Assembly: GCA_945871085.1 (NCBI GenBank)
Contig: CAMBVX010000004.1
Span: 1-54,643 of the forward strand
DNA length: 54,643 bases
From: Opitutus sp. GAS368
Lineage (GTDB): Bacteria > Verrucomicrobiota > Verrucomicrobiia > Opitutales > Opitutaceae
Direction of reading: 5' to 3'
Positions within the stretch are counted from its first letter, which is position 1; every line of letters begins with the position of its first letter. The position numbers and the translations under genes are program-made. The notes beneath the pieces are model-generated. The model was not told the origin of the DNA and searched no databases. It worked only from the letters and a program-made list of their open reading frames with translations. Shown here piece after piece: positions 41,760 through 44,924 of the stretch.

Positions 41760-41789
41760 GGGGGGAACCGTCACACGGTTCCCACCCCC
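41760..41789. other. Strong hairpin downstream of the ParA-operon
   Basis: GGAACCGT (41764-41771) and ACGGTTCC (41775-41782) form a perfect 8-bp stem with a 3-base loop, extended by four G against C-rich bases at 41785-41789. It is 32 bp beyond the stop of the coiled-coil gene on the minus strand but lacks a T-tract. The rest of 41262-41820 holds only the amtB promoter and repeat A. It may be an RNA 3'-end stabiliser or part of a structured element. Confidence 0.55.
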
Positions 41790-41820: not shown

Positions 41821-42525
41821 CTACTCGTTAAACTCGTCGTGTTTCTTTGCCGCGGCGTCTTCCGCTTTCAAAGCGGCGGCGAGCTGAGGATCGGCGGCGG
41901 CTTCGCGTTCACGGAAACGACGTTCACGGGCCCGCAGATCTTCCTCGCGTTGCTCAAGCTCGATTTCCTTTTCCTGCTGCGCCTGCACTTTTTCGAACAG
42001 CTTCGTCTCGCTCTCGTCGAGAAATTGTTCCCGCTCGCGCTGCGCCTGTTTGGCTTCCTTGAGCCCGGTCTCTTGGCGCTCCAATTCCGCACGGAGTTGC
42101 TCCAAGGCGATCTTCTCCTCGGGTGAAATCGCGACCTGCACTGGCGCAGCCTTGCGGGATGCCGAGATGAGCTTCTCCCGGGCCCGCAACAACGCCTCGT
42201 TCTCCGCCAAATCACGCTCCTGTTCGGCGAGGCGCGATTCGGTCTCGGCGATCGCCCGTTCCCGCTCGGCCAGGGAAAGCTCCAGTTGGCGCAGGGCCCG
42301 CTCGACTTCGGCGGCTTGCGAATTGGAAACGGCGGTCACACTGCCCGGCAACGGCGGGCGGGTGGCGGAGCGAAACGCCTGTATCTGTTCGCGCGTGGCC
42401 GCCGATTTTTCGGACAGATCAAACGGCGAGCGCGTCAGCGGGCGCCGCCGGGGCAGCGAAAGACCGGGAGCCGCCATGCCGGGAGGCCGGACGTTGGCAG
42501 GGCGAGGCGGGCTGAATTCAGGCAT
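41821..42525 (-). CDS. Coiled-coil protein, third gene of a ParA-like operon
   Basis: 234 residues from ATG 42525 (MPEFSPPRPANVRPPG). The first 85 residues are Pro/Arg-rich and probably unstructured; residues 90-225 are a near-continuous coiled coil of Glu/Arg/Ala heptads (AEVERALRQLELSLAERERA, EQREEDLRARERRFRERE). No membrane segment or enzymatic motif. It follows the 281-residue gene by 25 bp. A scaffold or cargo-adaptor role for the ParA-like ATPase is inferred from gene order and architecture. Confidence 0.75.
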   Translation of the reverse strand: MPEFSPPRPANVRPPGMAAPGLSLPRRRPLTRSPFDLSEKSAATREQIQAFRSATRPPLPGSVTAVSNSQAAEVERALRQLELSLAERERAIAETESRLAEQERDLAENEALLRAREKLISASRKAAPVQVAISPEEKIALEQLRAELERQETGLKEAKQAQREREQFLDESETKLFEKVQAQQEKEIELEQREEDLRARERRFREREAAADPQLAAALKAEDAAAKKHDEFNE

Positions 42526-42550
42526 AGATTCGAAACAGCGCGGAGGCGGA

Positions 42551-43396
42551 TTACTTCTTCTTAAACAACCAACCAAACAAGCCGGACTTCTTTTCCGCGA
42601 CCACGGCGGTGCGACCCACTGGCAGCCGCAGATGGGGCCGGATCAATCCGGCCGCACGTTTCTCCAAGTCGTGATCGCCCAGCGTGACAAAATGCCGCAA
42701 CAAAGAACCGCCGCCGACGACATCTTTTTCGATCACCGCCAGATCGTCGCGAAACCACGTCGACGCAATCTCGGCCCGGGCCTCCGCGTCGGGAGCCCGC
42801 GCCGCCTGGCCGAGCGACTCCGTCAAGTGCAGCCCCTTCACTCCACGCCGAAACGGAAGCACCTCGGTGAGCGCAGCCTCGTCCACATGCGACAGCGCGT
42901 TGAGTAGTTTCTTAAAATCCCCACCGACGATCACGTTTTGCGCCATGCTCTGCGCGAATACGGCAAACTCACCCAGCGTGGAGAGTTTCTCTAATTTACA
43001 GAATTCCAACGTGCCCGGCTCGAGTGCCGCTAACGCGACCGGAAAATTCTCCGGAATGCCGAGCTTCGCCAAATTCTTCAGCAGCTGGTTTTCCCGCGCC
43101 GACGAGGCCTCGGCCTGCGTGACCATCTCACCGAAGGGGCTGTCGAACGCGAGGGTCTCCTTGAGAATGCTCACCAGTTGATCGACGCGCTCGGGTTTCT
43201 GGCCCTTCAACTGCAGCAACTCGACGACTTCATCAAAACTGAGATCGATGTATTTCGAGGGCGTCTCGTCCTTGCCCTTGATCGGCCAATCGGCCGCGTC
43301 CAAGTTTTGCGCGAGGCTGGTCAACGCCGTGTCGACCATAATGGACGTGGAAAAGGCGGTGCGCGCCTCATCCCAATCTTTGGCGGTGGATTTCAT
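42551..43396 (-). CDS. Unknown 281-residue protein in a ParA-like operon
   Basis: A soluble, mostly helical protein without signal peptide or membrane spans. Notable stretches are SKYIDLSFDEVVELLQLKGQ, LAFDSPFGEMVTQ and a basic hydrophobic tail (KKSGLFGWLFKKK) that could bind membrane or be a short docking peptide. I do not recognise a named family. It lies 35 bp downstream of the ParA-like gene and 25 bp upstream of the coiled-coil gene, so the three genes form one operon. Confidence 0.7.
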   Translation of the reverse strand: MKSTAKDWDEARTAFSTSIMVDTALTSLAQNLDAADWPIKGKDETPSKYIDLSFDEVVELLQLKGQKPERVDQLVSILKETLAFDSPFGEMVTQAEASSARENQLLKNLAKLGIPENFPVALAALEPGTLEFCKLEKLSTLGEFAVFAQSMAQNVIVGGDFKKLLNALSHVDEAALTEVLPFRRGVKGLHLTESLGQAARAPDAEARAEIASTWFRDDLAVIEKDVVGGGSLLRHFVTLGDHDLEKRAAGLIRPHLRLPVGRTAVVAEKKSGLFGWLFKKK

Positions 43397-43431
43397 GCGA
43401 TAGATAAAAGGGGTGGCCGAAACCGACGGGT

Positions 43432-44331
43432 TTAACTCGCGCCCTGTTGGATGATCTCCCCGGCGAGCCGGCGATAGTCGTTGATCACATTATCGCCCGT
43501 CGGGCCGGCATCGGCCGCCTCGCTACCGACGAGCGCGACCGGCAGTCCCAGCGCGACCGCGCGACGCACGACCATCGCGTCCCGAATCTGCGTGTCCAAG
43601 ATCTTCGCCGTGGGCGCCGCCCGTTTCGCCGTGCGAAATTGATTCAGGCGGAGTTGCAGACGCATTTTCGGCACCTCGATATCTACGCCCGTCTTGATCG
43701 AATTGAAGATCAAACCCTGCACCTGCGCCGGTCCGCCCATCGCGGAAGTCCTGAAACTGGCGGAGAGTTGATGAAACTTGTAGAGTTTTTCGATCAACAG
43801 CGTGAAGCCGATCAAACTGAGCGCGTCCGGATTCACCGGCACGTAGATCTCGTTCGACGAAAACACCGCGCACTGGGACGCCCGCAGGATGTTCGGCGGG
43901 CAATCGAAAAGAATGAAGTCGTAGTTGGCCTCGATCGCGGCCAGCTGCTCTTGAAACACGAAATAATGCGGGCGCTTCGGGTCGCCGTTATACTCGTTCT
44001 CCAAGTCGACGAGATTAAACGTCGTCGGCACCAAATCGAGGCCGGGCAGGAGTTTTTCTCCGGTCTTCCCCTCGACCACGTCCTTGATCACCAACTCCCG
44101 GACCCGCGCGCGGCCGGGATCGAAAATGGAATAGACCGAACCCTCGCCAGCGGCGTTGATCTTATTCCAACGATCGAGGCGCAGCAGCCAAATGCTCGCG
44201 TTCGACTGGGTGTCGAAATCGCAAAGCAGGACACGCTTGCCCAATTTGGCGAGGGCTGCCGCCGTATTCACGATCAAAGACGTCTTGCCGACGCCTCCCT
44301 TGTAGTTGATGAAGCTGATTTTTCGGGCCAT
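43432..44331 (-). CDS. ParA/MinD-family ATPase
   Basis: 299 residues. Deviant Walker A INYKGGVGKTSL (residues 9-20) with the signature Lys, Walker A' LLCDFDTQSNAS (35-46) and Walker B FILFDCPPNI (about 138-147). VPVNPDALSLIG is the typical ParA continuation. Orphan ParA proteins position plasmids, chemoreceptor arrays, carboxysomes or other cargoes on the nucleoid. No parB or parS site is adjacent; instead two unknown genes follow in the operon, so a cargo other than DNA is suggested. Diverges from the Gre-like gene. Confidence 0.9.
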   Translation of the reverse strand: MARKISFINYKGGVGKTSLIVNTAAALAKLGKRVLLCDFDTQSNASIWLLRLDRWNKINAAGEGSVYSIFDPGRARVRELVIKDVVEGKTGEKLLPGLDLVPTTFNLVDLENEYNGDPKRPHYFVFQEQLAAIEANYDFILFDCPPNILRASQCAVFSSNEIYVPVNPDALSLIGFTLLIEKLYKFHQLSASFRTSAMGGPAQVQGLIFNSIKTGVDIEVPKMRLQLRLNQFRTAKRAAPTAKILDTQIRDAMVVRRAVALGLPVALVGSEAADAGPTGDNVINDYRRLAGEIIQQGAS

Positions 44332-44441: not shown

Positions 44442-44924
44442 GTGAACAAAACCGCCATCCGCGACGCCATCCTCGCTCAACTCCGCGCCGAACTTGCGCT
44501 CCAAGCCGGCGCCGCCCAAATGGCCCGCGACGAGGCCATCAGCGAGGAGAGCCGGGCCGAAAGTAAATACGACACGCATGGGCAAGAGGCCGCCTACTTG
44601 GCCGAAGGACAAGCCAAGCTGGCCGGAGAAATTGAAACGAGCCTCGCACTCTACGCCGGCCTGCCCCTGCCCGCTTTCGCACCGGACAGCGTGATTGCGC
44701 TGGGTGCCGTCATCGAACTGGCCACGCGCAGCCGCAGTTCCTGGTATTTCCTCGGCCCTCGGGCCGGCGGAATTGAACTCTGCGTCGCAGGCCGCGACAT
44801 CCTCGTCCTCACTCCGCAATCGCCCCTCGGCCGCCAATTTCTCGGCAAGCGCGTCGGCGACACCGTGCAGATGCCCGGTCGCAGCGGCGCCTCGACCGGG
44901 CATAAGATTCTGACGGTAGAATAA
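44442..44924 (+). CDS. GreA/GreB-type transcript-cleavage-like factor
   Basis: 160 residues from GTG 44442 (MNKTAIRDAILAQLRAELAL). The N-terminal coiled coil contains EESRAESKYDTHGQEAAYLA, the signature of a short Gre-like family often mislabelled as an acyl-carrier-protein synthase. The C-terminal FKBP-like part has VIALGAVIELATRSRSSWYF and ends PLGRQFLGKRVGDTVQMPG. Gre proteins bind the RNA polymerase secondary channel and aid transcript cleavage; activity of this subgroup is uncertain. The gene is monocistronic, divergent from the ParA gene and convergent with tonB. Confidence 0.85.
   Translation: MNKTAIRDAILAQLRAELALQAGAAQMARDEAISEESRAESKYDTHGQEAAYLAEGQAKLAGEIETSLALYAGLPLPAFAPDSVIALGAVIELATRSRSSWYFLGPRAGGIELCVAGRDILVLTPQSPLGRQFLGKRVGDTVQMPGRSGASTGHKILTVE

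Follow-up and report, generated by a model that had tools for sequence, protein, structure and literature searches.

A ParA-type ATPase conserved with two orphan partner proteins in Opitutales and its possible role in intracellular positioning

The stretch of DNA analysed here, referred to below as the window, comprises 54,643 nucleotides from Opitutus sp. GAS368 (assembly GCA_945871085.1, contig CAMBVX010000004.1, positions 1-54,643 of the forward strand). Three consecutive genes on its minus strand encode a ParA-type ATPase and two partner proteins, for which we coined the labels G2 and G3 (Table 1). The ATPase gene is separated from the G2 gene by 35 bp (43397-43431) and the G2 gene from that of G3 by 25 bp (42526-42550), the same spacing that had been given in an earlier note made from the sequence alone. 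We place the start of G3 at the ATG at 42525 and its stop at 41821; the list of open reading frames (ORFs) instead begins at an upstream TTG (42576), which makes the gene overlap that of G2.

Conservation of the three genes

The trio is a real, conserved module of a ParA-type ATPase and two orphan partners. A search with G2 among 57 related genomes, the window's own included, returned 23 matches, of which 22 are strong (E <= 3.4e-50) and one is weak (G038, 1.4e-5). Twenty regions were fetched, a set that excludes the short contigs of G002 and G005, and ParA adjoins G2 in all 20 of them while G3 does so in 19, with the same order and strand throughout. The close ATPase subfamily (at least 390 bits) is present in 21 of the 57 genomes, every one of them among the 22 with a strong G2 match; the exception is G002, whose G2 is cut by a contig end. 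A scan of contigs then yielded 153 stretches encoding a G2 relative. The best 80 of these are our named loci, which were picked by G2 patterns and hence give no measure of the loss of G2 itself. ParA was found in 78 of them, the other two being cut at a contig end, and G3 in 77, the remainder being one contig end and loci L144 and L151, where it was undetected. Partners not conserved with the ATPase would have refuted the earlier note; these counts show that they are conserved with it.

The reach of this conservation is narrower than the phylum, across which the earlier note had proposed to test it. The titles of the 80 loci name Opitutaceae, Opitutae, Opitutia or just Verrucomicrobia, from which the order was taken as Opitutales, and in a sample of the phylum G2 was detected in 40 of 387 genomes, all belonging to the window's order (28 from its own family and 12 from other families). 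The trio is thus kept within one order, but not across Verrucomicrobiota as a whole. The median gap between ParA and G2 is 46.5 bp (n=78) and that between G2 and G3 is 6 bp (n=75), with starts chosen by rule; L124 and L139, which are cut by contig ends, were excluded from the spacing and tail counts, and L157 from the tail counts. Such packing appears operon-like. Pairwise distances of the three proteins correlate across 68 loci (r = 0.65-0.79, reached in 0 of 500 permutations), as plain vertical descent would likewise predict. Reading frames broken in metagenome-assembled genomes (MAGs) were kept as found (ParA of L032 and L035; G2 and G3 of L175). No paper describing the trio was found in the open-access literature searched (titles and the beginnings of abstracts), and the available passages of PMC12283558 are silent on it.

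Table 1. Positions of the trio, of features within and beside it, and of related ATPase pairs.
Feature	Position	Strand	Basis or remark
ParA/MinD-type P-loop ATPase, 299 aa	43432..44331	-	KGGVGKTS, FDCPP; basic insertion of ~10 residues, VPKMRLQLRL, absent from the genome's own Soj and common to the related ATPase clade
G2, 281 aa, all-helical in the model, without a family or fold match; proposed as an adaptor tethered to the membrane	42551..43396	-	ORF, Pfam and NCBIfam scans, model, fold searches
C-terminal tail of G2, KKSGLFGWLFKKK, basic and hydrophobic in character, which is conserved; candidate membrane-targeting tail	42554..42592	-	Homologue comparison; low-confidence end of the model; helical moment 0.14 (low)
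G3, 234 aa, proline-rich N-terminus followed by coiled-coil-like region; proposed activator/scaffold	41821..42525	-	ATG start, homologue comparison
Basic motif GLSLPRRR in the N-terminal part of G3 (residues 21-28), a candidate for an ATPase-activating peptide	42442..42465	-	Homologue comparison
12-bp inverted repeat, 92% complementary, 34 bp past the G3 stop; possible operon end (weak)	41760..41786		No clear T run; absent from the terminator-like list
Related ParA and acidic partner pairs; second undescribed ATPase-partner pair	L182:8106-9913; L183:8370-10609; L184:6266-8977	head-to-head	

Features of the ATPase and its partners

The ATPase carries a Walker A motif of the deviant type with its signature lysine (KGGVGKTS, residues 11-18) and a Walker B-type sequence (FILFDCPP), and residues K11-S18 and D143-P146 are invariant in an alignment of 18 sequences. 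Pfam AAA_31 matches above its cut-off (E = 1.9e-35), and Pfam CBP_BcsQ also matches; many NCBIfam models of ParA/MinD type also match, all below their own cut-offs. These motifs place the protein in the ParA/MinD P-loop ATPase superfamily, in keeping with the full Walker motifs ascribed to it previously, and by its family it would be a nucleotide-dependent dimer switch. The nearest solved structures by sequence are Soj-type ParA proteins, and a PHROG called ParA-like partition protein matches as well. Relative to the genome's own Soj, encoded on contig C38, the trio ATPase has the basic insertion listed in Table 1. In a tree, which has very long branches and an unsettled bootstrap and is to be read as rough only, the trio ATPases together with those of L182-L185 split from the genome's own Soj and from L186/L187 at 100/100. 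The C-terminus, AGEIIQQGAS, lacks a membrane helix of the MinD type. A PADLOC search for defence systems gave only P-loop-level matches for the ATPase and none for G2 or G3.

No Pfam or NCBIfam family matches G2. A model built from a 76-sequence alignment (drawn from the 80 loci and the window, the remainder being cut or near-identical) is all-helical, with a predicted local distance difference test score (pLDDT) of 90.7 and a predicted template modelling score (pTM) of 0.66 for the whole protein; residues 102-262 modelled alone reach a pLDDT of 92.5 and a pTM of 0.85. Foldseek returned no match at E <= 0.001 for either the whole model or residues 102-262, and the best VIA-align results were Z 3.6 (root-mean-square deviation 3.9, 63 residues aligned) and Z 3.0 (7.3, 88 aligned), respectively, values that would still allow a known fold. 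With a threshold of E <= 1, a profile of G2 matched eight chains among solved structures. Six are designed repeat proteins (E 0.02-0.11), which from their names we take to be of the armadillo type, and two are of the 26S-proteasome/PCI type (E 0.34), a weak lead towards an alpha-solenoid. G2 therefore has a confident model for which these searches found no solved relative.

The C-terminal tail of G2 falls in a low-confidence region of the model, and its basic and hydrophobic character is kept in homologues. The last 11 residues bear a net charge of at least +2 in 77 of 77 homologues versus 45 of 152 control C-termini (trio genes excluded), and an acidic residue lies within the tail in only one of the 77. 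A criterion for resemblance to a membrane-targeting helix was passed by 36 of 77 tails, versus 3 of 152 controls and 1 of 62 controls from genes common to at least three regions; the tail criteria, like the motif patterns used for G3, were defined after viewing the sequences. The tail is possibly membrane-targeting, which would fit a role for G2 as a membrane adaptor. Both elements of the earlier description, a 281-residue helical partner and its basic-hydrophobic tail, are present, the helices as seen in the model.

G3 likewise matches no Pfam family, and its sole NCBIfam matches are to models of SMC and FlbB (E 0.025-0.25). Its N-terminus is proline-rich and poorly conserved outside the motif LxL-[P/R]-RRR. 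Of 75 homologues, 72 have an LxL sequence with adjoining basic residues, which starts at a median position of 24 in the 63 caught by a narrower pattern, and 66 have an IKFP-like (FP-like) element. The N-terminal part is followed by a charged, coiled-coil-like region. The coiled coil claimed at the outset is supported by the composition and heptad-like pattern of this region, but a simple test of periodicity in the window protein was not sharp. In PMC13170346 and in passages of PMC10241942, published activators are described as using a short basic N-terminal peptide, and the latter passages describe a positively charged, disordered N-terminus as general among activators. For PomX of Myxococcus, a 22-residue basic N-terminal peptide sufficient for ATPase stimulation is followed by an Ala/Pro-rich stretch and a coiled coil (passages of PMC7993993 and PMC13170346). 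The LxL-[P/R]-RRR motif of G3 is a candidate ATPase-activating peptide of this kind, and so the search for a basic activating sequence that had been proposed for the two partners ends with a candidate in G3.

A possible positioning module and its alternatives

The only ParB_N match in the genome lies on contig C113, not on that of the trio, and the Soj-type parA lies on C38 (L179), so that the two are on different contigs of this MAG; C113 has no AAA_31 match. No parS-like site lies near the trio, and those in the window do not exceed chance (three matches with three mismatches each, a result reached by 20 of 100 shuffles). An exact parS occurs in none of 187 loci, a weak test, as the Soj and ParB stretches have none either; the consensus is one that we assume, and the local parS may differ from it. 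No DNA-binding domain was recognised in G2 or G3 in the Pfam and NCBIfam scans. G2 had no match in 72,556 plasmid and 50,697 phage records, and a plasmid or phage origin of the trio was discarded on this ground. The trio thus stands apart from the linked ParB and parS that define ParABS, and the absence of ParB noted earlier is upheld.

We consider it slightly better than an even bet that the trio is a chromosomal three-protein positioning module resembling PomXYZ. From the linkage, conservation and motifs described above, and from the lack of a linked ParB, we infer how ATPase activation, membrane binding, a surface and a cargo might be combined. The ATPase would serve as a nucleotide-driven switch that dimerises with ATP. 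G3 would self-assemble through its coiled coil and offer its N-terminal basic peptide, LxL-[P/R]-RRR, to stimulate the ATPase. G2 would be a globular helical adaptor held at the inner membrane by its basic, hydrophobic C-terminal tail, and would connect both G3 and the switch with a cargo that is associated with the membrane. Cycles of binding, activation and release could then move or hold the assembly relative to the nucleoid, in the manner of PomX/Y/Z and McdA/B. In lineages lacking a detected G3, activation would have to come from G2 or another protein. An orphan ATPase is here accompanied by a pair of conserved partners, in which one defined stretch is a candidate activating peptide and another a candidate membrane anchor.

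Several observations weigh against this proposal. In an alignment, the window ATPase has G215, D251 and V254 where ParA proteins canonically contact DNA through arginines; these are R195, R221 and R224 in CcParA, mapped onto the genome's own Soj by spacing and from passages of PMC7229837. Invariant K213, R224, R250 and R257 lie nearby, and DNA-binding determinants are described as often poorly conserved among such ATPases (passages of PMC7229837). Nucleoid binding is plausible by family; because the canonical arginines are not conserved, the nucleoid is as yet a surface suggested by family membership, and the ATPase may use another. The tail of the window G2 fails the amphipathy criterion (moment 0.14), as do 41 of the 77 tails overall, and the four second-copy G2 proteins of the f11 regions, together with that of L048, have no basic-hydrophobic tail. 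No cargo gene is consistently adjacent to the trio. G3 was undetected not only in L144 and L151 but also in the eight regions of f11, of which one has no ParA, in f22 (L167), in L174 and in L176, a region that is itself ambiguous. Because several loci with ParA and G2 thus have no detected G3, G3 cannot be the sole activator everywhere; ParA with G2 is the core, and G3 is the usual third part near the window. The earlier reading, a nucleoid-based system positioning a non-DNA cargo by means of an activator and an adaptor, is supported in part by the conserved partners, the lack of linked ParB and parS, the candidate peptide of G3 and the adaptor-like tail of G2, but is weakened where it names the nucleoid by the replaced arginines.

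Like PomX/PomY/PomZ of Myxococcus xanthus, the trio combines a ParA-type ATPase with a third partner and with a coiled-coil protein whose N-terminal part is rich in proline and contains a conserved basic peptide. In architecture, the unsharp coiled-coil periodicity aside, G3 has the basic N-terminal peptide, proline-rich linker and coiled coil of a PomX-like partner. Unlike in PomX, where the peptide spans residues 1-22, the basic motif of G3 lies some 20-30 residues in, and G2, with 281 residues and a basic-hydrophobic tail, differs from PomY, which has at least 682 residues; the taxon also differs, and possibly the target. The likeness is one of layout, compared by description rather than by demonstrated homology. 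McdA/McdB, which position carboxysomes, resemble the trio in pairing an ATPase with a partner that has a charged, disordered N-terminus, but the trio has two partners and shows no association with microcompartment genes (p = 0.18). MinD/MinE(/MinC) belong to the same ATPase superfamily and share a candidate membrane tail within the system; in the trio the tail is on G2 and not on the ATPase, and MinC occurs in none of the 57 relatives, which separates it from MinCDE. ParABS (Soj/Spo0J) supplies the ATPase family and the closest solved relatives by sequence, whereas the trio has no linked ParB or parS, replaced DNA-contact arginines and the insertion of ~10 residues. It also differs from FlhG/ParC in lacking an association with flagellar or chemotaxis genes (p = 0.78 and 0.11 in the 57 genomes).

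A bolder reading, which we think doubtful, is a machine working between two surfaces, in which a nucleoid-cycling ATPase of the ParA branch would drive a complex anchored in the inner membrane by the tail of G2 and activated by G3 as a separate coiled-coil scaffold. G2 would then be a membrane adaptor with a new fold, and the whole would serve placement in an order where the search gave no MinC. Positioning of this two-surface type is not described in the literature searched. With MinC found in none of the 57 relatives, a placement system of this order would merit attention for its own sake.

The cargo is approached through occurrence in the 57 genomes, with the weak G2 match of G038 scored as trio-negative and a sub-cut-off flagellin match of G041 as positive. 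The patchy occurrence of the trio speaks against an essential cargo. This bears on the division site, where, by the same mechanism as in PomX/Y/Z, a G2/G3 assembly would mark midcell and recruit FtsZ. MinC_C gave no match in the 57 relatives but did so in 6 of 14 control genomes, so that another placement system may be needed, and G3 shows the layout of PomX given in passages of PMC7993993. We nonetheless judge this cargo unlikely: a strong trio match is present in only 22 of 57 genomes and is patchy even within the genus, though all these cells must divide, and none of the genes next to the trio was recognised as a division gene.

Another reading, which we regard as quite unlikely, replaces positioning by regulation, with the ATPase as a membrane-linked switch controlling the activity of an enzyme or complex in the way of BcsQ, FlhG or a kinase-coupled system. 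Its appeal lies in the match to CBP_BcsQ and in a protein of 240 aa (c2), which belongs to no Pfam family and is encoded directly upstream of ParA and G2 in all five of L163-L167, which comprise f22 and the four second copies of f11; in four of the five (L163-L165 and L167) the gene before that one is kinase-like (PF00069 was tested on L164 only). Against it, the 240-aa protein has no match in the window's genome, the genes flanking the trio there include no apparent kinase (no kinase search of the genome was made), and G3 has the architecture of an activator or scaffold.

It is also distinctly unlikely that the inner-membrane cargo positioned by the ATPase and G2 is a type IV pilus or a type II secretion machine. 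Such a target would be near-universal, a pilT-family match being present in 56 of the 57 genomes (50 above the cut-off). Eight of 20 G2 proteins show weak similarity to T2SSF (best E 0.001, 19.5 bits versus a curated cut-off of 25.2), to be taken as a lead only, and a related ATPase at L185 is convergent to genes that by eye resemble gspF and gspE. Yet machines so widespread do not follow the trio in their presence, T2SSF did not appear in the fold-comparison list for the G2 model, and no pilus gene was recognised next to the trio. Because MinC is absent from all 57 genomes and the pilT family present in 56, neither discriminates between cargos.

Among protein cargos of ParA/MinD ATPases, flagella, chemoreceptor arrays and microcompartments are the best known (passages of PMC10241942), and the window's genome has matches for all three markers, flagellin, methyl-accepting chemotaxis proteins (MCPs) and bacterial microcompartment (BMC) shell proteins. 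Flagellin occurs in 34 of the 57 genomes (14 of 22 with the trio versus 20 of 35 without, p = 0.78; within the family p = 1.0), MCPs in 31 (15 of 22 versus 16 of 35, p = 0.11; within the family p = 0.19) and BMC shell proteins in 32 (15 of 22 versus 17 of 35, p = 0.18; within the family 13 of 20 versus 12 of 17, p = 1.0). None is associated with the trio, which is present without flagellin or MCP in G006, a genome 100% complete, and without BMC in G012 and G033. These structures are disfavoured as a general cargo, and we regard them as a very improbable one. Least credible is DNA partition by a plasmid or chromosome ParA with one partner acting as ParB: the closeness to Soj-type structures and the PHROG match favour it, but the separate Soj and ParB of this genome, the chance-level parS-like sites, the lack of G2 from plasmid and phage records and the lack of a recognised DNA-binding domain in the partners all count against it.

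Variant loci, related ATPases and neighbouring genes

Eighteen further regions were taken from distant members, and ParA stands beside G2 in 17 of them, with G3 detected in 7. The remaining region, L161 (G217:C1:2875000-2892000), encodes a G2 homologue of 317 aa with no neighbouring ATPase detected, and the same genome has a pair of ParA and G2 at L164. At a second locus of G305, L175, G3 is present in broken frames. The 240-aa protein described above is divergent beside the trio in L170-L172 and L046, and a search with a single query sequence found it in 1 of 57 relatives; having no match in the window's genome, it was rejected as a component of the trio. A secreted or outer-membrane-like protein of ~360-460 aa (c4), encoded downstream of G3 in 46 of the 80 loci, had been considered as a fourth member. 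One of the two copies scanned gave a weak match to OMP_b-brl_2. This candidate was dropped: in the window it does not adjoin the trio, no copy was found in the other 34 loci (some of which stop at a contig end), and its occurrence is compatible with shared gene order.

ATPases related to that of the trio, at 44-49% identity, occur in three genomes that gave no G2 match, G020, G027 and G016. In all three the ATPase gene is paired head-to-head with one whose product is acidic and apparently disordered and has a conserved, basic N-terminal stretch, SI[YL]xx[VM]xxRRxRS. These acidic partners would match the expected pattern in which each ATPase clade has an activator-bearing partner of its own, and we count them in favour of the positioning module. 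A fourth related ATPase (G038:C30, L185:8038-12733), the one convergent to the gspF/gspE-like genes, has no neighbour encoding an acidic protein.

In the window, scans for promoter-like sites found three versus 0.8 expected, one of them upstream of ParA and on its strand (44446-44419), and scans for terminator-like sites found eight versus 4.6 expected, none clearly positioned after G3. The genes around the trio look unrelated to it. They include an ammonium-transporter-like gene ~560 bp downstream, named by eye, a gene upstream for a TonB-type protein and, as the upstream neighbour of ParA, a divergent gene (44442-44924, plus strand) with a marginal match to the GreA/GreB C-terminal domain (27.7 bits versus a cut-off of 26.9). 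The cluster to which this GreA/GreB-domain gene belongs is present in 9 of 21 compared trio regions.

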